Below, piece after piece: positions 1,879 to 63,000 of a DNA stretch of 64,000 nucleotides (within the stretch, counting starts at the first letter, position 1; the number at the start of each line of letters is the position of its first letter). Both the position numbers and the translations under genes were made by a program. Location: positions 24,535,092 to 24,599,091 of the forward strand of contig CP141143.1 in the NCBI GenBank assembly GCA_035235625.1. Reading direction: 5' to 3'. This stretch comes from Saururus chinensis. Lineage: Eukaryota > Streptophyta > Magnoliopsida > Piperales > Saururaceae. A model generated the notes under the pieces. The model saw only the letters and a program-made list of their open reading frames with translations, was not told where the DNA came from and did no database searches.

Positions 1879-4800
1879 TGTCACGCCCCGGAACTACCCG
1901 ACCCAAGCCGAACCCGGTCCAGCGCACGGGGGCGACGGTTTAAAAATGGTTAAAGAAATAGCAGAAGACTTATGCCCTAACTATGGGCGATCTAATTTAC
2001 GGAGTTTACGCACTACTTTGAGCAAGAATAAATAGGTAGAACCAAAAGAGTTACTTAAACTCTAACCAAAACACAAATCTCAAACCCACATACTAACAAT
2101 CCATAGCCACACACTTGGCTTAACACAAGGTCTCAAATAAATTTAAAGATGTAATATATCACAAGTTTGAAAATAAGAACCACACCACAAGGTTCTAACA
2201 TTAAAACAAAATAAACAAGAGACATGCAAAAACTAGAAGCCTCCACGACTACTCCCAAGCTCTCTCCGATCTTTCCTCATACAGAGGATCCTGTCTATCT
2301 GCGTGTCACGCCACGTAGCCCCAAACAAAACAAAAAAGTGGGGTGAGTATAAAAACTCAATAATAGTTTTAATACAACGACAATAATCAGAAAACACAAT
2401 GGCATAACAGTCTATTAAATAAGATCCACATTTGACCAGATACACTATTTTCTGATCATGCATTCCCATCACATAAACCTGCATAATAGTATCTCATTCC
2501 CATATTTTCTGATCATGCATTCATAACTCAAAATCCTGCATAATAGTGTCTCATTCACACATCTTTATAATCATGCATTCATAACACTTAATCTTGCATA
2601 ATAGTGTCTCATTCACACATTTCTGATCAATGCATTCATAACACATAATCCTGCATAATAGTGTTTCATCCACACATCTTCTGATCATGCATTCATAACA
2701 CATAATCTTGCATAATAGTGTCTCATTCACACATTTTTTGATCATGCATTCATAACACAAAATCCTGCATAATAGTGTCTCATTCACACATTTTCTGATC
2801 ATACATTCATATCACATCAAACTCATTTACCCTGCATAACAAACGTGTCAATCACATGATACACAATCATGCATAGCATTCATAATAAACATGTATCAAT
2901 ACACATGGTGAATGCCTCCATCAAGGAGTAAACACAAATATTGCCACATAGACAGACACAGTCAAGGCCACGAAGGTGACACACAGTCAAATTTCCACAC
3001 AGGAAATGTAAGAGGGTCAGGGTTGTCAGCACATAAAGCTGCTCGCCCTGGATGATCCTGACCAAGGATGTCCCATTCTCACACAAAGAATCTAGAGCAG
3101 AGGTGTTCGCATAAGGACATCTCCTACGGAAGGGAGAGCCCGAATTCCCACATAGGGAACCCTAGAACACGTGGTAGTGGGTGCACATGACATACCACTC
3201 TGGATTCTCAGGGTCCAGATGACACCCATAATAATCTCAAATCCGCAAGACAAGTACATAACTCGTCCCCACATAATTTCATTTCACTAGACTCAACCCA
3301 GGGAGTACACTGTTCCGCACAAGAACTTAAATCGAAAACATGTCATTTCAGACCAGCCAAGTTCCGATTAATTCACCGAGCGATTAATCCGGCACGCAAT
3401 CTCAACCATTGCATACAATCGATTAATTCCAGTTAAACATCGATAAAACTTCGTGCATGAATATCAATTCATGATGCATGATAACATGATACATCCATGA
3501 GCAAGACCTACGTGGGTTCCAACACATGGAATGTGCTCCCAATCAGTCCCCTCATGCATCATAATCAAGGCATAATTACTACAATTTCATAGTAGATTCC
3601 CCATATGTGTGTATATTCATGCATATCTAAGCACATGTCCAATGCTTGACATAAACTCATAAGATAATTTACACATGCTTGAACATATTCAAAATAATGA
3701 TTCCTAATTAAAATCAAAACAAAATTCACTGTAAAGCTTAAATCCATCCATGTGAAATCGGACATTCCCTCTCACAAACATGATTATTTCATTCATTAAG
3801 CCACAATATGATCACATCTATTACCCATAAACTATCCTCATTATAAGAGAACAAATCTCACCATTTTCCACATAATATCCCAGCTGAAAACATATTTTAA
3901 TCATAAGAGTTCCAACATTCAAAAGTTCAAGGTATTTCAATATCAACATGCATAATTATCAACATAATATGATACAACATAACCACACTTAAACACATTC
4001 CATAAACTTTCATCATCAATTCTACACCTCCAGTAGCTTAATTTCATCATAATACGTCTCTCATAACCATTAGAATCATCAAATGGAGTAAAATATTGAA
4101 ATGAACATAAGTTTTAAAAATAGCAAAAACTGTCGTGTACCCTTCAATCGCCCTGCAAGGCCGTTCAATCGGCTAAACTGAAAATATGCCAAAAATGTGG
4201 TGTTGCCAATTGATCGCCCTAGTAGACCGTTTAATCGCCAACAAAGCAGTTTTGACCTTCTTCTTCATTTCGAAAATCAAAACCGAAACACTATGAAAAC
4301 ACTTTCAAATCTTCATTCATGGTACCAAACATTATAAAAATTCATCAAACCTTCCAGAACACTAATCTAAACCATTCTAAAATAAAGCCCTAAGAAATCA
4401 AAATGAAATATTATCATTTACTAAACCCACCATTAGAGCCCAAATCAAGAAAAACCCACTTCAAATAACAAAATAAAAACAGAGATTTTTGCTACCCAAA
4501 GTTGAGATTAAAAAAATCATTACCTTTCCTTGTTGATTTGCACTGGAATGAACCTTCAATCTCTTCCAACACCTTCCAAAAACACAATTTTAAGTTAACA
4601 TACTACTAATCTCGATTTAGCTTTGAAAAATTAAAAGTAAACATTAGATCTAGGGTTTTAGAAGCTTAAAAACGAGATTTTGAAGATTAAGGCTTAGAGA
4701 AGAGAGGTAAATCAATAGTTTTATGCTTTCAAAATGGATTAAAACCATGATTGAAGTCAAGATTAAGAATAGATTAAGAGAAAACCTAGGGTTTAGGCTT

Positions 4801-19400: not shown

Positions 19401-21099
19401 TCACCTTGACCTAACAATCTCTTCCTTCATTGCAAGTGAGAGTGCACTCAAACTGCCCCCAGCCTCAACCCTCACCCCAGGCATACACACAGCCCTGCTC
19501 CCCACAAACCCTCCCTCCCCAACCCTGACCTTCCCAAACTTCACCTTCCCTCCCTCCCCCTCATATATGTGCCCAAACAGCACTGCCCCCCTCCCCACAC
19601 ACCCACCCCTTCCTACCTCCACCATCTCTGGGTTCAGTGTGGCCCCCATGCTGTCCACATACCCTCCCATCATCCCTGACCCCATCAGCCTCATCCACAC
19701 CCCAAACAGCTGGGACCCACATGTCATCTCCATGAAGTAGTCCCCCACCACTGTCCTCACTGCCTGCCATACAGTGTCCATGAACACCTCCCTGCTCCAT
19801 ATCAGCACAGTCTCTCCTTCCCCCTTCTTCCCCACCAAGACCCACTTCCCCGCTATGCAGACCAGTGTTGCCAAGAGCCCTGAAGAAACCCAGAAGCATG
19901 GCAGCATCCAGTGGAGTGGGAGCTGCTGCTTCTCTTTCATGGACAGCATCCAACTCAAGGGAGGATACACCGCCAGGCCCAAGAGGAAATATGGCACAAG
20001 TGTTTGTAGAAATGGCTGAAAGAGGGTAGCCCACACGGTCTGGTACCAACTCCTGGCCAGCGTGACATTGGGAGGGGAACGAGCATTGTCCCTGGTCATG
20101 GCAGCTGCCATTGGGCATCCGGAGAGGTCGATCCTGACGTCGGACTGGCCCAGGAAGGCGCGCCAGGACGGAGGCAGTGGGGCACCGTTGCGTAAGTGCT
20201 GGCAGATTTCGTACACCAGAGACCGGCCATGATCGATGGACGCGCTTTCGCTGCAGGAGGTTGCCTTGATTATGTCCAGCTCGTGAGTCCGGAGGTAGGG
20301 GTTAAATTCCAGCTGCTCTGACTCTTCAGTACTTAAATTCTGATCAATGGTGATCGTGCCCACATCAATGTAGGGGAATTGGGATTCATCCCATGGTCGG
20401 GTGCAATCCAGTGCCTCCTCCCGCTCGGCGTCATCTGTGGGCACAGGCCGGAGTTGCAATTGGAACACGTATTGGACGCCGCCGGGAGAACTCACCCTGC
20501 GCTGGAAGTCGTCAGCAAGGAAGAGCAACGGCCGGGTGTCTTTGTCGTTCCTGGGTATGGCACCGGTCTCGGGCGGGAGGATTCCGATGGGTTCCACCTT
20601 ACCAGAGTCTTCCTCGATGTGCTCATCTGCCGGGCGAAGCTTGAATTTGGCGTACATCTCCAGGCCGCCAGAGCATCGGAGGAGGCGGGTGATATTAGAA
20701 TAGTAATGCAGCTCGGCGTAGGAGTCAGCGTTCCGGAGGGATCCCCACACGGCGTCACGGATGTGCGGCGTCCGCGCCACCTGTGCCTCCCTCGCCGGCA
20801 ATCCGCAGGCCAGCCACGTCGCGAAATCACTAATCGTTTGAGCATAGAAGGCCTTGCCTGTCTTGAGAGTCAGGTCGAGGAGCGGCGGATGATCACCATT
20901 GCCGGCGTGGGATAGTATTCTGACAGCTGCGCCGCGCGCATCGATCCTCGCATCGTCGTCGGCGCTGAGGCTGTTGCTGTGCCGGATGACAACTGGGAAC
21001 GTTTTCCCGGCGCTGAAGATCTTGTGGTCAGGGAGCCCGGGCAGGTGGTCGAAGAGCTTGAGCTCGCCCTTGCCACTCACCCCAATCCGGTGGAAGTAC
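19401..21099 (-). other. Domain: catalase-like haem domain plus third membrane/beta-helix module (exon 8)
   Basis: Residues 1756-2320. YFHRIGVSGKGELKLFD matches the catalase 'R.vHa.G.gakG.f' segment, placing a distal His at 1758. FPVVIRHSNSLSADDDARIDARGAAVRIL matches the 'pv.vRfSn...D..rD.RGfA.K' block. DHGRSLVYEI carries the Arg-x3-Tyr proximal haem-ligand motif (Arg2047, Tyr2051). The His-to-Tyr spacing, 293 residues, is close to that of true catalases (about 283). Membrane segments (2111-2178) and hexapeptide repeats (LNPEMVEVGRGGCVGRGAVL, VRVGEGGFVGSRAVCMPG) end the protein. By family this is a haem peroxidase, peroxygenase or allene-oxide-synthase-like activity. The exon is distinctly GC-rich against the preceding exons. 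Confidence 0.85.
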
Positions 21100-24000
21100 C
21101 TGCAATACACCAAAAGCATATAAGCATTTCTCACTCAATTTTGAGCAGGAACATGTAATTATCATTGCATCAATTTCTTTTGCAGAAAGTAGTTCAATTG
21201 GCAAGCAGTGATTTGAACGTGGAAGTACCTGGATTTGACTTTCATGGTTGTGATGGCCAGGCTGGCGGCTAGGTTGCCGACGATCTTTTTGTATTTTGGG
21301 TCCATTTCTTCGATTCTTTCATCCACTGCATGGAGAGTGTTCTTCACCATGACTGGGGTCTGGGAACCGACGTAGACACCACCCATTTGCAGAATGGAAC
21401 CGGTAGGTGCGACTGACAAGGCCCCCAGGATCACATCTCGTTCTTGAACAGAGCCGGGGAGGATGAGGCTCTGGCTTCCGACCACAGAGTTGTCTTGGAT
21501 GTCAATTTTCTGGCGGGTGAAGCCGGTGGCTGAGTAGAACCCGGTGAGTATGCAGCTAAAGTCGCCGAGGTGGACTCCATTGCCGATGGAGATGAGTTGT
21601 GGGTCGGTCACTGGATTGATGGCCCTGATTGAACAGTGGCGGCCAATTTTGGCCCCCAGGAGGCGCAGGTACATGCAGAAGGCTTCCGTACCGGTGAGGA
21701 GATGGGCGAATCGGAGATGGCAGGCGGTGCTGATGCGGTGGCGGAGCCAGGCCTTGAAGTGGGTCTCTGTAGAATTTGGTGCTTTGGAGAGATATCGGGT
21801 AGAAATGGAGGTCAGGATGGCAAGAATTAGACCATGGGCAATGTAGGCGACTGCAAAGAAGACGGCGAAGGCTGCTGGATTGGAAGGGATGGTGGTGAAG
21901 ATGGTGGAGTAGGCGGCAAGAGCAGCAGGGGCCCAGTGAAATGATCCAGCAATGCAGAGGAAGGCCAGGACTTGAAGGGAAGGAGGAGCTTTAGAATAGT
22001 GTATGCACAGTAAGTAGAAGATAGAGGCAGAGAGAGAGCTGAGGAAGCCAACAGCATATATGCCCATGAATTGGTAGAAAGAATTTTCAATACGTTCAGC
22101 CTTTTCATCCTGCAAATAAAGACATTCACTGTAAGATTAGCAAGATAAATCCTGAAATACAAATCTCTAGGCTTCAGTGGCATAGGAAATGAAGATATGA
22201 ACGCCAAACAATTTTATAAGAGATGTTGGAGGGAAATACTTTTTGAGCTTTCCCAGCCTTGTGGGATTGGTAAATAGGCTTTCCTTTATCTGTCTTTTGC
22301 AATGGTGGCACATCTGCTGCTTCTCCCACAACACTTCCCTTCTGAACAACGGCATAAGGACCAATAAATGAATCCCGGCCAATTTTCACAGGGAAGAAGC
22401 TGAGTATGCCGTCCTTCACCTCATGACTTTGAATCAAAGCACCCTCTGCAATGACAGCTCCATCTCCTATCAAAACCAGAGATGGGTCTGTGATGTCAAT
22501 TGTGTCAAGAAGAACAGAGGAACCAATCCGGGCACCCAATATCCCAAACCAGTAGTTCAGGAATGCTGTTCCTCTTAAGTGAACGGCTAGTTCTTTTCCT
22601 GCAACCTCTTGGGCCTTGTAAAGCACCCACCACTTCACAAAATCCGTGGACCAGATGGAGATCTCAGGTGTCAATGTGTAGTTTGGTTGGAGAAAGGATT
22701 TCCCAAAAAGAGATATGCTTACGCAGGTGAGGAACATGTAGAGGATCCATGCAAGGGGAGCCAAAAGTGGGGGGATGCAGAAATTAAGGAATGAGAAGGT
22801 GCCCAACAGAGTGTTGGCAGTGGAAAGCAAACTCAAAAATGCAGAGGTCGAGAGATAGGCAGGAAGAATGAGCAATGCTGATATGTAAACAATACCTAAA
22901 AGTTGCAGGAATCCAATACCCAGTTTCCAGAAGGTTGAGATTTCCACCGGCTCAATGGGACTGGTCAAAGGTTCAGAATGATCAGTTGGATTAGTTGCAA
23001 GGAGAGGCTCAGATTTCATCAGAAGATTCGCCGAGAAACTGGCCAAGTCTTCAATACAGGTAGCTGTGAAAATGTCCACAGCCCCAACTGGAACCCCAAG
23101 GAAATCAGACAACTTTTGTGCTGCTCTAACTACCCCAATCGAATCAATCCCATATGCGACCAGACTCTCGGTAGCTGTAATCTTTGCAGCTGCAATACCT
23201 GTTTGCTCTGAGACCAGCTTCTTCAGGAAGTCTATGATCTCATCCTTAGTTTTCCTACCATTCTGAGGAAGAGGGAGTGGTCTGCTGAGGAGATTGCGAG
23301 GAGTTTTGCCCTCCTTACATGTACCTGTGCTAAAAGATCTAAGAAGAGACTTCTGCATGGAACCTGCATCTGTCACCAAATTGAGACTCCCATCAGTAAA
23401 TTGCTTCAGGCACTCAAACCGCCGTATTTTACCTGAAGTAGTTTTGCTGATAGTCCTAGGCTTAATTAACTTGACAGAAGCCACAGGAACGCCATGCTCT
23501 TCTGCCACTTTATTTTGAATTTGTTCAACAATTTCCTTGTCCACAGATTTACCTTCTCTAACCTCTGCAATCACAACCAGTCCGATCTGATCAGAGCTTT
23601 CTGGGACAACAATACCCTTTTCTGTTAGAACTTCTTCAGGAACACCAATCACAGCACAGCAACCAGGGCGCAGGACTTCAGACGAGTTTTCGACAGTCTT
23701 TTCTACATCAGCTGAGTATATATTTCTCCCTCCAACAATGATGAGGTCCTTGATTCTTCCGGTAATGAAAAGCTTCCCATCTATAACTCTTCCCAGATCT
23801 CCAGTTCTGGTAAATTTTTTGCAAGGGCGGTTGGGAAGAACGTTGCCAAATGTTTGCTGGCTCAGTTCTTGCTTACCCCAGTACCCAATTCCGGCACTGG
23901 GACTGCTGATCCATATTTCACCTTCTTTTCCATGCTCTTCTTGTTCTACACCTGTTTCTGGATCAACAATTTGAATCTCAACATCTGGATCATCTGAATG

Positions 24001-27000
24001 CACATATCCACAGCAAACTCGGCCTTGCCAATCAACAAAAATGGGGTTCCCCTCCCCAAATGCACAACTCACAAAGACACAGTTCTCAGCTAAGCCATAG
24101 CCTGGAGCCATGACCTCCTGCAATAGGCCAAATGGAAGAGTGAGCTCAACAAACCTTTTCAGTGTCTTCTGCCTCACAGGCTCAGCAGCAACCATCAGGA
24201 AGACCATGGAAGACAGGTCATAACTCCTGTTCTTATCCTTTTCATACTCCAGTCGTCTGACAACAAGCTCAAAGGCAAAATTGGGCCCTGCACTGTGTGT
24301 AGCTCGGTATTTGCTCATGGTCTGGAGCCACAGAAGTGGGTTTTTGATGAACGTCATGGGGGAGAAGAGAACAGCAGTTCCACCACTCACTAAAGCTGTG
24401 AAGAGGCCTCCAATCAGCCCCATATCATGGTACTGAGGAAGCCAACTAACTAGTACAGTTTTGGAGGTGCTCTTGTATCTCTTCTTCATCAACTTCACGT
24501 TATGAATGAGCCCACCATGAGTGATCATCACCCCCTTGGCATCCCCAGTTGATCCAGAAGTGAACTGCAGGAAGCATACATCGTTTGGACAGGGCTCAGA
24601 GTCAAGAATTTCCAGTATGTCCCCTATATTTGGCTCAAGATAACCACTTTTTGGGCACTTGATCCATGAGTCTGTATGCAGCCATGGAAGCTTGGGCCAG
24701 GAAGCTGAAGTCTTTCCATTGCTCTTCATCGGGAATATCAAGTTCTTCACTGACCCTGCTCGAACTGCTGCATGATATGACACACTGGAGAGAATTGCCA
24801 CCGCATTGCAGGATTTGCAGATGTTTTCAATCTTCAGAAGCGCCTGTCCACCTCTCTGTGATGGATCGGGTGGTAATACTGGTACTGGTAACACTTTGGC
24901 TCTTAGGCAACCAAAGAACGCATCTACAAAGTCCAGACCAGGAATGTGGACCAGAAGAACTCTATCTCCGGACTTGATGACTGGTTTCTGGCTTGTCAGA
25001 AGCTTATAGGCAATCTGTGATGCATTGGCATGAAGTTGCTTGTAGGTTCTCTGACTCACAACTTCCCCCCCTTCATTGAGCCATTTGTAGAGAATTTTGC
25101 TCTCTGTGATGGGTTGAGTTGCCCAGAACTTCAAATAGCCATCAAGAGTTGAAAGATCCGGAAATTGTGTACCTAGGAGATCATCTATTTGTTTGCAGCT
25201 TCGAGCCCCAGAAGAGGGAAGCATAGGTAATAATCTCTGCAAAAGGAAAACAAATTACAAATTAATTGACTTACTAGTGTAAGTTGAAGTCTCCTGTTAC
25301 TTGATCTTTGATTACCTTGACATATGGGAATATTGGCAATGGATTGTCGATGGCAAAGTGCTTACGTATCAGAGCCATGGCATAGGAGGAATTCCTCTCT
25401 GTAAGCTCAAATGCCATTAGCCCTCCCACGTAGAAAGTATTCTGCAAACCTTGAAGTTCTGACTCCAACTTTTCATAAAACCCAGATTTTATATCTGTTG
25501 CACATTGATAAATGGAGAGGTTACTTTCTAGTTTTCAGATTTCTCAACGAATGCGAACAAGTTTTTTTCTTTCTTTTCTTTTTGTTGGGGATAGGAATTA
25601 CTTTTGAGCATACCTTTACTGTCGACGTGAGGAAAATACTTAAATCTTCTTTGTAAGATGACGTCCTCAACTACTCCTCCCATGTTCTTCACCACATCGG
25701 TGGCAAATTTGGTGACTGAAGGACCCTTTATGTCTCCAGAATTTCCGTAGGACCAGAAGAGGAAAATATTTGTGTCCGCGTAAAACCTCTGCATAGCCAC
25801 CGGATGGCCAATAGTAGCAGGATCGTCCATGAACTCTCCGAAGTAGTAAAACCCCATTGGGATATGTTCAAGGTTACTGATCTTCATAACTGTGGTGTAG
25901 TAATCTATTGTCTTCACTTTGTTGAACAGCTCCTTCTCAAGTTCATTCATCTCCAAGACTTCATTTTCTTGAACTAACAAAAGGAGTAAAACTACTAATG
26001 AATTTGTTGCTGACATAGAAAGCCACACAGATCAAATTATTTATTATACTAATGTCACCTTCTGAAGCTGAAGAAGACCTATAAGTTCTTCCATGAATGA
26101 ATGGGAGAGAACCTGATACTATAAGCTTGTCAAACTGCAGAACGCTGTTTTCACCATTGGAGTCTTTGACAGTTATATTTATGCCAATTGAATTTCTCTG
26201 TATTTTCATTACTTCTGTGTTGCAGTTCACATCCACAGGTAAGGATTGGCTCAGCTTCTGCCAAACACTCATGTAACCTCCTTCGAAACGCCTTATTTTT
26301 CCAGCCATGGATGTTCTAGTAAATTCATGAATGTAAGCATATGGCATGTCTTGGACGAAGCCATAACCAGAAGCAGTGTACCCATATGCCACCGATTTTG
26401 GGACTGATTCAAATCCATGAAGCTGAAGAAAATCAGGTGTTGGGTCTGATCCAAATTCACTAACAGCATGGACCCCAATTCTACCAGACTCATTTGCCTT
26501 ATCCTGTAATAATATATTACAATTGAAGAAGTCAGTTAATAGTCAAGTACAAAATTCGAAGGTGGTAATTTGTACAGAAATTAACCTGAAGCTTTAAGGT
26601 TAGATTGATAACAGAGACATAATCATCTGCCACTTTCATGTCTTGATATTTTCCTGAACTCTCAATGAGTGCAAACTTATGAGAGTCCATTTCTTCAAGT
26701 TGAGACCCTGTTTCCTTTGCCAAGTGAAAGAGAACGGGAGCTGAGTTTGCTGCTAGAACTTGGCCACCAAGATCGTAAATATTTCCTGTAAATTATGCAC
26801 AATGTTGGACAAATCAGATATTTTCACAAATCCCAGTGGTTTAAACCAGAAATAAAACATAGGATGTCACTCCAAGCAATACCTTCAATTTCTACTGATT
26901 CACACATTCCTCCCACAGTATGGTACTTCTCCAGCACGGTCACATTGCTGTAGCCAAGCTTAGCAAGTGCGTAGGCAGAAGACAAGCCACTTGGGCCGGC

Positions 27001-27084
27001 ACCCACTATTCCTATTCTGGTGTTAATTGGAAAGCATGGATGTAATTTGGAGAATTGATCTTCCACTGACTTTCTTGTATCCAT
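19401..27084 (-). CDS. Predicted 2,320-aa multidomain protein: oxidoreductase / FAAL / carrier / beta-helix / catalase-like
   Basis: There are eight exons: 27084-26883, 26785-26586, 26503-26059, 25973-25614, 25494-25316, 25236-22240, 22109-21229 and 21099-19401. All introns are GT-AG, the phases agree throughout, and the sum is 6,963 nt with one terminal stop. Domains (residues): FAD/NAD(P) Rossmann oxidoreductase 20-455; fatty-acyl-AMP ligase about 490-1080; phosphopantetheine carrier about 1125-1200; membrane segments and left-handed beta-helix 1 (1232-1435); membrane and helix 2 (1474-1700); catalase-like haem domain 1756-2085; membrane and helix 3 (2111-2303). Catalytic motifs survive in each. 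The start is the first ATG before the Rossmann motif. From families known in bacteria, I infer fatty-acid activation, tethering and oxidation at a membrane; the product is unknown. It has introns and a plant neighbour, so it is not contamination. The exact domain order needs homologues to confirm. Confidence 0.93.
21229..22109 (-). other. Domain: second membrane plus left-handed beta-helix module (exon 7)
   Basis: Residues 1462-1755. Several hydrophobic helices (about 1474-1569: FMGIYAVGFLSSLSASIFYL, VLAFLCIAG, FAVFFAVAYIAHGLILAIL) are followed by hexapeptide repeats (LGAKIGRHCSI, LISIGNGVHLGDFSCIL, IDIQDNSVVGSQSLILPGSV, VILGALSVAPTG). The unit repeats the organisation of the end of exon 6, as the tandem modules of bacterial poly-lysine-synthetase tails do. 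It splices in phase 2 into the catalase-like exon. Confidence 0.88.
22240..25236 (-). other. Domain: fatty-acyl-AMP ligase plus acyl carrier and first beta-helix (exon 6)
   Basis: One 2,997-nt exon gives residues 463-1461. Adenylation motifs are LQFTSGSTGDAKGVMITHGG (685-704), SWLPQYHDMGLIGG, GYGLAE (841-846), FTRTGDLGR and GRIKDLIIVGGRNIYSADVE, and ISKTTSGKIRR with the C-terminal catalytic Lys near 1064. The 'WLPqyHDMGLIG' wording is that of fatty-acyl-AMP ligases rather than CoA ligases or 4CL. The carrier motif YGIDSIGVV places the phosphopantetheine Ser at 1161. Hydrophobic segments at about 1232-1310 precede hexapeptide-repeat sequence (LGARIGSSVLLDTIDI, LVLIGDGAVIAEGALI, VKIGRDSFIGPYAVVQKGSVV). 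The closest known arrangement is bacterial adenylation-carrier proteins with the membrane tail seen in epsilon-poly-lysine synthetase-like NRPSs. Confidence 0.93.
25316..27084 (-). other. Domain: FAD/NAD(P)-binding amine-oxidase-like oxidoreductase (exons 1-5)
   Basis: These exons give residues 1-462. IGIVGAGPSGLSSAYALAKL at 24-43 is the dinucleotide-binding GxGxxG, and the acidic residue ending strand 2 is Glu52, in a ...VTVLEK context. GGMCES follows, and after the first splice NIYDLGGQVL, the usual second FAD contact. FEGGYMSVWQKLSQSL then NTEVMKIQRN in exon 3 is the amine-oxidase/phytoene-desaturase-type 'gGm..l...L' and 'V..I.r' block. No signal peptide is evident. Family knowledge gives FAD-dependent oxidation or desaturation; the substrate is unknown. 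A position at the N-terminus of an acyl ligase suggests action on the tethered or incoming acyl chain. Confidence 0.85.
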
Positions 27085-60088: not shown

Positions 60089-63000
60089 TAGAGCCTAAGG
60101 GAAAAAGGGACTTCAACCTGAATAAGTTACTCTTGCATGAGATAGAGTGGGCAAAAGAAGAAGCTGAAGAGGGTCAACGTAGCCTCAAAGGGCAGGAACA
60201 TGTAAGGCATAGCAACAATATGCCTAAACGGTACATCTTTTGTGGGTTTGACTCACTTTTTCTTTGAATGTCCAAAAGCAAAGACTTTTCCTCTCTAAGA
60301 AAGCCCCAACTACTTGGAGAAGAAAGTTCTTAAATACCTCGGGTAAATAGTTTTGAACGTGTATAGTAGTTTTTAACTGTACTTTAAGTTGTTTTGTTAT
60401 GTAAATGGTTAACTTAGTTTCTGGTGATGTAAATAAGTTGCAAGGTTGTTTATGTATTAACCTTGTTTTTATAAAAAGATCTTAATATTATGAATCTATG
60501 TTTAGATGATGCCTACTAATGATAAAGATGCTCGACCAGCAAGTAGCTCAACTCCATCAGATATTGCTACATTGGTCACTTTGGCAACAGGGGACCCTAT
60601 GACATATTTTCTTGATTTATTGATGTAAAGAATGACTCGATATCTTCAAGCAGAAGGATTCCAATCGAATCATTCAAATCATACTACTAATTCAAGAGAA
60701 AGTGTTCACAGTGAGAAAGATAATATGTTGGAATGTTTTAAGAAACTTGCGTCAACATTTATAGGGGAAGATGACCCTAAAGCCGCTGAAAAATTGACTT
60801 TTGAGGTCGAAAGGATTTTTAAACCAATGAAAATTCCTGAGGATCAAAACGTGTCATTAGCCACTTTTTCAATGATGAGTGAAGCCACTTTTTCAATGAT
60901 AAGTGAAGCCCCTTTTTGGTGGCTTATAGCAAAAAGAAACTTCTTTTCATATGGTGATCATATTAAGTGGGAGGAGTTTAAAGAAGTGTTATACAATAAA
61001 TATTTTCCTCCTCACGTCCAAGAAAGAAAAGAAAATGAATTTTTAGACTTGCAGCAGGGAATCTTAACGATGGCACAGTACGAGAATAAGTTTGTACAAC
61101 TACAACGCTTCGCCCCAAATTTTTGCACAACTGAATTTAAGAAGGCGCAAAATTTTGTAAGGGGCTTAAATAATGGTTTGAGAAATAGGATTGTCGGCCA
61201 TCAACCCACCATCTTTGCCACAATCACAGTTGAAGGGAAAGAAAAAAATAGAAAAATGTCCCTAGTGTAATAGATTCCATCTATCTGGATCATGCTATTT
61301 CTGCGAGGGAAAATGTTTTTCTTATGGTGGACGTGGTCATCGGATTAAAGATTGTCCCAAGAAGAAAAATCAAGAAGAATTGAAACCATATCAGAAACCT
61401 AAAGCTCAAGGTCGAGTCTTTGCGACCACAGCTGAAGAGGCTCAAGCATCGATGACAATCATTCAAAGTACACTTCTAGTCTTCGATAAAATAGTAAAAA
61501 ATTGGATAGATATAGGGTCAACACATTCTTTCATATTGTCTAATTTTGCTTGAGTATTGGCCATTCTATTTTAAATTAGGATATGTTTTAGAAGTGTCCA
61601 CCCCAATTGGAAAAACATTTATAGCTTGTGAATTTCTTCAAGGGGTACCTATCTCCTTAGAGAAACAACAGTGGAAGGCCGACCTTATTCTCCCAAATAT
61701 GACATACTTTGATGTCATATAAGGTATGAATTGGTTAGCTGATAATGGGGCATTAGTGGATTGTAAACAGAAGAAGGTTATCTTTAAGCAAGGAGAAAAG
61801 AGTTTCACATTTCATGGATTAAATGATCATTCCAAATCATGTATTATTTTGACAATTAAGGTTCATCGGCTTTTAACTAAAGGATGTCAAGCATATTTTG
61901 CGAGCGTAGAAATTAAAGAGATGTTAACGAATAAGTTGGAAAATATAGTAGTACAAGACTTCTTTGATGTTTTTCTTGATGATCTATCTGGACTACCACC
62001 AAAAAGAGAGATAGATTTTTCTATTGACTTGATGCCGGGAACAAACCCTATTTCAAAGGCACCCTACCACATGGCTCTGGCAGAGTTAAAAAGTCAATTA
62101 CAGGACTTGCTAGATAAAGGATTTATCCGACTCAATGTCTCTCCTTGGGGAGCACCGGTCATGTTTGTGAGAAAGAATGATGGATCGTTGAGATTATGTA
62201 TTGACTATAGATTGCTCAATACCATCACTATAAAAAATAAGGATCATTTACCTTGTATAGATGACTTGTTTGATCAATTACAGATGGCCAAAATTTTCTC
62301 TAAAATAGATATGCGGTTGGGATACCATCAATTAAGAATACGAGATGGGGATATTTCTAAAACAGCTTTTCGCACCCAGTATGGCCACTATTAGTTTTTA
62401 GTGATGTCATTTGAATTAACAAATGCCCCAGCAGCTTTCATGGATCTTATAAATAGAGTTTTTCGGCCTTATTTGGATAAATTTGTGATCGTGTTTCTTG
62501 ACGACATCCTAATCTAGTCTAGCAGTTTAGATGAACACTATGAACATTTGTAAATAGTTTTGCAAACTCTAAGGGCTCATAGGCTATACGCCAAATTTAG
62601 TAAGTGTGAATTTTGGATGGAACAAGTGCTTTTCTTAGGACATGTCATTTCAAAGGATGGAGTATCTATGGATCTAACCAAGATAGAAGCGGTAATAAAA
62701 TGGGAAAGGCCGAAGAGAGTAACAGAAATCCGAAGCTTTTTAGGCCTTGCTGGTTATTACCGAAGATTCATCTATGGATTTTCAAGTATTGTCTTACCTT
62801 TGACAAAATTGATAAGGAAAGGAGTAAAATTTATTTGGGATGAGACATGTGAAAAGACTTTTCTAGAATTAAAGAGAAAACTAACAACTGCTTTAGTTTT
62901 GGCATTACCAACTGGCAATGGAGGATTTGTCGTGTATAGTGATGCATCGAAAAGAGGCCTATGATGTATGTCTATGCAAAACGGAAAAGTGATTGCATAC

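Follow-up and report, generated by a model that had tools for sequence, protein, structure and literature searches.

The window, a 64,000-nucleotide stretch of Saururus chinensis DNA (positions 24,535,092-24,599,091 of contig 4, in a genome of 516 Mb in 11 contigs), contains a gene whose predicted product joins a flavin domain, a fatty-acid–AMP ligase (FAAL), a carrier and a membrane tail of the bacterial Pls type, into which a catalase-fold heme domain is inserted. Our best explanation, also the most economical one, in which we place slightly less than even confidence, is that this protein would be a membrane-bound machine, built as one polypeptide, that handles unsaturated fatty acids tethered to a carrier. 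The original prediction had proposed a lipid or oxylipin assembly line, a theme that is strengthened by our analysis, since among solved structures both extra domains, flavin and heme, best match enzymes of unsaturated fatty acids, namely the isomerase PAI and coral allene oxide synthase (AOS), which supports an assembly line acting on a carrier-tethered chain.

The whole coding region occupies 19401..27084 on the minus strand, from a start ATG at 27084 to a stop TGA at 19401-19403, and comprises eight exons with a total of 6,963 nt, encoding 2,320 residues with no internal stops and with GT-AG borders at all seven introns. An in-phase model of eight exons and 2,320 codons had been predicted, and it agrees exactly with the sequence in coordinates, number of exons, splice sites and length. 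Exons 1-5 (26883-27084, 26586-26785, 26059-26503, 25614-25973 and 25316-25494, minus strand) encode the flavin domain, exon 6 the FAAL, the carrier and the first membrane/beta-helix module, exon 7 the second module, and exon 8 the heme domain together with the third; domain borders coincide with exon borders at residues 462, 1461 and 1755. The parts of the predicted domain order therefore stand, except that the catalase-like domain, which had been placed as a terminal add-on, sits between modules 2 and 3. For the domain assignments that follow, which are read from sequence, a chance origin is excluded by the Pfam, NCBIfam and Pls-profile scores.

The N-terminal FAD domain (residues 1-462, exons 1-5; 25316..27084, minus strand), delimited by the gene model and by its match to PDB entry 2b9w, contains the Pfam families NAD_binding_8 at residues 26-92 (1.9e-13) and Amino_oxidase at residues 32-268. 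Its best PDB match is 2b9w, with an E-value of 3.7e-29 over residues 21-449, near full length, against 1.3e-7 over 81 residues for the runner-up. This entry is described in the PDB as a putative aminooxidase, and we take it to be the Propionibacterium acnes (P. acnes) polyunsaturated fatty acid isomerase PAI, with which the plant domain shares 113 of 405 aligned residues. Judged by this match, the flavin domain is a relative of the bacterial isomerase, which bears out the predicted FAD oxidoreductase and narrows it. The plant domain differs from PAI in its fusion to a FAAL-carrier protein and at two positions that presumably belong to the PAI substrate site, Arg88 and Phe168, which in a pairwise alignment correspond to Lys104 and Ser179 (R88->K, F168->S).

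The FAAL domain (residues 486-1081, exon 6; 23380..25167, minus strand) is assigned from NCBIfam and PDB matches, a tree and its motifs. Pfam AMP-binding covers residues 524-915, the NCBIfam fatty-acid–AMP ligase model matches at 2.6e-91 (PRK05850, 306.7 bits), and the FadD32 model spans residues 486-1081. The top PDB match (9.2e-82) is 7r7e, which is listed there as a polyketide synthase and which we take to be a FAAL; chains named FadD23, FadD28, FadD32 or fatty acyl-adenylate ligase follow at 2.4e-63 to 3.2e-47 (8hcz at 5e-48), and the first feruloyl-CoA synthetase in the match list is found at 7.6e-24. A 20-row tree puts the fused FAAL inside a 14-row clade with 7r7e (support 100/100), where its sister is a stand-alone FAAL encoded elsewhere in this genome (100/99), with the warnings that the stand-alone row has a long branch and the fused row a deviant letter make-up. 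By tree placement and match ranking, the exon 6 domain groups with FAALs and not with acyl-CoA ligases. The stand-alone FAAL frame (L010/L037; G000:C10, about 3214443-3216230) is open for 676 codons and is 35% identical to the fused domain.

The FAAL retains TSGSTGDAKG at residue 688, YGLAE, RTGDL and SGKIRR at residue 1063, which presumably represent the adenylation motifs and the catalytic lysine, the A10-type Lys1065 being retained. The stretch from YGxAE to IVDP, where we assume the FAAL-specific insertion to sit, measures 38 residues, compared with 55 in 7r7e and 56 in the stand-alone FAAL, that is 17-18 fewer, a warning that the activity may differ from that of the named relatives. Behind the FAAL lies the carrier (phosphopantetheine) domain (residues 1132-1195; 23038..23229, minus strand; PF00550, PP-binding, E 5.2e-11), with a predicted attachment site at Ser1161 within a GIDS motif, and the genome contains two above-cut-off matches to the phosphopantetheinyl-transferase family ACPS. 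The pairing of FAAL and carrier, as predicted, is thus borne out by tree placement, PDB ranking and the key residues kept.

The tail was compared with a Pls profile built from five bacterial Pls/PosA tails, its E-values referring to a one-sequence search. Module 1 (residues 1230-1450; 22273..22935, minus strand) scores 76.7 bits and is also found by the NCBIfam Pls/PosA terminal-domain model TIGR02353; module 2 (exon 7, residues 1476-1712; 21357..22067, minus strand) scores 53.1 bits at residues 1570-1712; and module 3 (exon 8, residues 2114-2317; 19413..20024, minus strand) scores 52.4 bits at residues 2136-2317, a match to positions 587-766 of the 783 in the profile, its last part. TIGR02353 matches in three stretches with 182.7 bits, short of the 423 bits set as its cut-off for a whole protein, and Pfam Hexapep matches residues 1412-1434 with 20.5 bits, under its cut-off of 27. 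The three profile matches and three TIGR02353 stretches confirm the predicted Pls-like tail with three membrane/beta-helix modules. Hydrophobic stretches lie at residues 1231-1311, 1476-1565 and 2114-2178 by hydropathy, a crude measure whose cut-off flags two stretches within the FAAL as well and which therefore does not prove membrane helices. A one-to-one mapping of the modules on Pls C1-C3 is clear for module 1 only (84 bits to C1 versus 75); it fails for module 2, which is closer to Pls module 1 than to Pls module 2 (61 versus 48 bits), and is weak for module 3 on C3 (61.3 versus 57.6).

Structural modelling by domain, as had been suggested, was useful in part: the exon 8 model (mean pLDDT 56.2) served for the heme domain only, the exon 7 model (40.8) was unusable and too poor for a structure search, and modules 1 and 3 gave no reliable model. 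For PosA, a published model of the tail shows the three beta-helices gathered into a single three-fold unit that sits on six membrane helices, with the packing known from sugar-nucleotide acyltransferases (PMC10522769). Pls/PosA proteins (TIGR02353) likewise consist of adenylation and carrier domains followed by three membrane/beta-helix modules, but they have an amino-acid adenylation domain and an uninterrupted tail, whereas the plant protein has a FAAL, an additional N-terminal flavin domain and a heme domain between modules 2 and 3, and scores under the curated cut-off. The adenylation domains of the seven bacterial Pls proteins examined resemble one another far more than they resemble the plant FAAL: with the domain of one of them (L004) as query, the remaining six give 242-405 bits, whereas with the plant FAAL as query all seven score 17-43.

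The catalase-fold, AOS-like heme domain (residues 1755-2059, exon 8; 20187..21099, minus strand) is placed between modules 2 and 3 by the positions of the Pls-profile matches, so that exon 8 encodes both it and module 3. Pfam Catalase matches in two stretches (E 2.1e-8, best at residues 1961-2023). In the PDB search, coral allene oxide synthase (cAOS) was matched at 5.7e-30 and the best true catalase at 0.0055, with 91 of 292 residues identical to cAOS, meaning that the catalase-like fold originally predicted holds and that its identity is corrected to a relative of the coral enzyme. Six of the eight heme-pocket positions compared with cAOS are kept (R64, H67, R102, R349, Y353 and R360), R349 being a pocket position by our own assumption. 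R64, R102, R360, Y353 and H67 of cAOS correspond to R1755, R1794, R2058, Y2051 and H1758 in the plant protein, in which Arg2047 is also kept at the heme site; roles for the cAOS residues, R349 excepted, have been described (PMC5617202). The distal pocket is changed at the remaining two positions, T66->F (F1757) and N137->K (K1834), where the five relatives compared (coral, Sinorhizobium NGR234, L017, L018 and L019) have T or S at position 66 and N at position 137. These two changes make ordinary AOS or catalase chemistry doubtful and warn that the activity may differ from that of the named relatives, and because T66 and N137 are lacking we call the domain AOS-like and not an AOS. Also, cAOS K107, which may hold the free carboxyl group (PMC5617202), aligns with plant Ser1800; a carrier-tethered chain would have no need of this lysine, which is not proof of tethering.

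The coral catalase-related AOS (PDB 1u5u/3dy5) differs from the plant domain in these two residues and in its context, as it is fused to a lipoxygenase while the plant domain is lodged inside a Pls tail. When genome contigs were scanned with the heme domain, five related loci turned up, two of them partial. One is a 907-codon ORF of Thiohalocapsa halophila (L017:5467-8187), which combines, as in corals, an AOS-like domain with a lipoxygenase domain recognised by Pfam (E 2e-67); in its AOS-like domain, Ile replaces the proximal heme Tyr. In Sinorhizobium NGR234, the mini-catalase region (L001:6886-12939, pNGR234a) is annotated as two CDS, with a frame open across both, and adjoins a di-heme cytochrome c peroxidase and a patatin-like phospholipase, a neighbourhood that is possibly a bacterial lipid-peroxide gene set. 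A six-row tree of heme domains was set aside, having no starred branch and no ordinary catalase and missing the second plant catalase exon.

In outline, this architecture has been described before. The relevant passages of an eLife 2021 paper (e70067, PMC8460268) report plant proteins of unknown function in which a FAAL-like domain is flanked by HemY on one side and catalase (or amino acid oxidase) on the other, and the combination of FAD oxidoreductase, FAAL and catalase-type domain in one protein fits that description, including the overall order, in a comparison by text and not by sequence. The same passages make no mention of PAI, allene oxide synthase or a Pls-type tail, and the portion of the open-licence PMC literature covered here, a collection outside which most subscription journals and preprints fall, gave no account of these identities for the plant fusion. 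A 2022 study states, in the section concerned, that FAALs were recruited early in plants and algae (PMC9342972). The closer naming of the domains turns 'HemY and catalase, function unknown' into assays of acyl loading, isomerisation, hydroperoxide turnover and acyl transfer.

From the relationships of the domains we infer the chemistry as well as the order of steps, the acceptor and the membrane topology of the proposed machine. The FAAL would convert a free polyunsaturated fatty acid, or alternatively a fatty-acid hydroperoxide supplied by a separate lipoxygenase, into acyl-AMP and load it onto the built-in carrier arm, CoA being unused. The flavin domain would then shift or rearrange double bonds in the manner of PAI, and the heme domain, like catalase-related oxylipin enzymes, would rearrange a hydroperoxide, or an oxidised acyl group akin to one, these two steps occurring in either order. 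Lastly, the three beta-helices would hand the acyl chain, once modified, to an acceptor at the membrane that offers an amine or a hydroxyl group. Most of what is known of plant oxylipins, jasmonates among them, concerns free fatty acids acted on by lipoxygenases and CYP74 enzymes. Beside this free-acid lipoxygenase/CYP74 pathway, the protein might constitute a second, CoA-independent oxylipin route, with PAI-like and AOS-like steps on a polyunsaturated or peroxidised chain held by a carrier and a Pls-type beta-helix acyltransferase delivering directly to a membrane acceptor, an idea that we regard as possible and somewhat unlikely. A FAAL, a carrier, PAI-like and catalase-related domains and a Pls-type tail in one plant protein would point to an unexplored class of plant lipids.

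A simpler machine, in which the FAAL, the carrier and the Pls-type tail work alone to make an N-acyl or O-acyl membrane lipid, and the flavin and heme domains serve a structural purpose or are no longer catalytic, is unlikely in our estimation. It agrees with the intact motifs of FAAL and carrier and with the changes seen at two positions of the distal heme pocket and at two of PAI, but it is at odds with the retention of the distal His and the five further heme-contact or proximal residues checked, and with a flavin-domain start that still matches NAD_binding_8 at 1.9e-13. We consider it quite improbable that the protein detoxifies or repairs membrane lipid peroxides, with the heme domain removing acyl hydroperoxides, the FAAL and carrier capturing the acid and the tail re-esterifying it. 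The catalase fold with its proximal Arg and Tyr and distal His, together with the peroxidase and phospholipase annotated next to the Sinorhizobium relative, would suit such a role; however, the distal Asn -> Lys and Thr -> Phe changes, unlike the AOS relatives compared, do not, and a PAI-like isomerase has no clear role in repair. That the frame combines at least two distinct genes, broken for instance before exon 6 or exon 8, would be in line with introns 5, 6 and 7 coinciding with domain borders and with a third-position GC content (GC3) that is 0.33 in exons 2-3 and has climbed to 0.71 by exon 8, but is highly implausible given a copy on C11 that joins exons 3-4-5-6, while silent on exons 7 and 8, and given the fused order with FAAL between HemY and catalase domains described in plants in those eLife 2021 passages (PMC8460268), which speaks against split genes.

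The C11 copy that bears on the preferred reading of one gene is broken, intron-less and partial (L036, G000:C11:26547000-26556000, locus 3212-4706), covering coding positions of about 820-2918 in pieces with several stops. Over coding positions 820-1466 it forms a single alignment with small gaps and 76% identity, which crosses the joins 3/4 (847), 4/5 (1207) and 5/6 (1386) with introns 3, 4 and 5 missing, supporting three of the seven splice junctions; junctions 1/2, 2/3, 6/7 and 7/8 have the gene sequence itself as their basis. Most likely this locus is a retrocopy of a spliced mRNA, which we judge likelier than an old duplication followed by intron gain in the main gene because three introns are absent at once. 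A spliced mRNA that joined the end of the flavin domain to the start of the FAAL would then have existed, and the two domains probably shared one transcript. The open frame through eight exons, together with this copy spanning exons 3-6, bears out the original reading of a single gene. A fragment on contig 6, in which the beginning of intron 7 is preserved, is a copy made from DNA, and at G000:C2:40080074-40080193 the first 39-40 codons of the gene are copied with about 88-90% identity, the remainder being absent. Searches of the genome with heme domain plus module 3, with the flavin domain and with modules 1-2, scored for the best candidates only, found just this gene and short or broken pieces; strong catalase-family matches elsewhere in the genome lie on C2.

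A bacterial origin of the whole protein was considered and rejected, no bacterial equivalent having been found in a shallow search. Among 299 genomes of the phylum of Thiohalocapsa, with two candidates scored per genome, exon 6 had a match in 104 at E <= 1e-20, none of those listed extending past residue 733 of 999. In the phylum of Gemmata, a two-module query matched in 4 of 149 genomes at E <= 1e-10, a cut-off that is strict because the Gemmata genome itself (module match 1.6e-8) counted as a miss. In two of these four regions (L058 and L060) the Pls frame proved to be the longest ORF; L057 and L059, in which the chosen ORF was not the Pls frame, were left out. A scan of viral contigs with exon 6 gave no match, and tRNA and promoter scans were irrelevant to the reading of the gene.

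GC3 in exon 7 is 0.62. Exon 8 opens with the same ten bases as intron 7 (window 21099-21228), GTACTTCCAC, where module 2 gives way to the heme domain, and this repeat may be a trace of intron gain by tandem duplication. Elsewhere in the window, two ORFs at 60629-62394 on the plus strand resemble, by eye, pieces of retrotransposon gag and reverse transcriptase.
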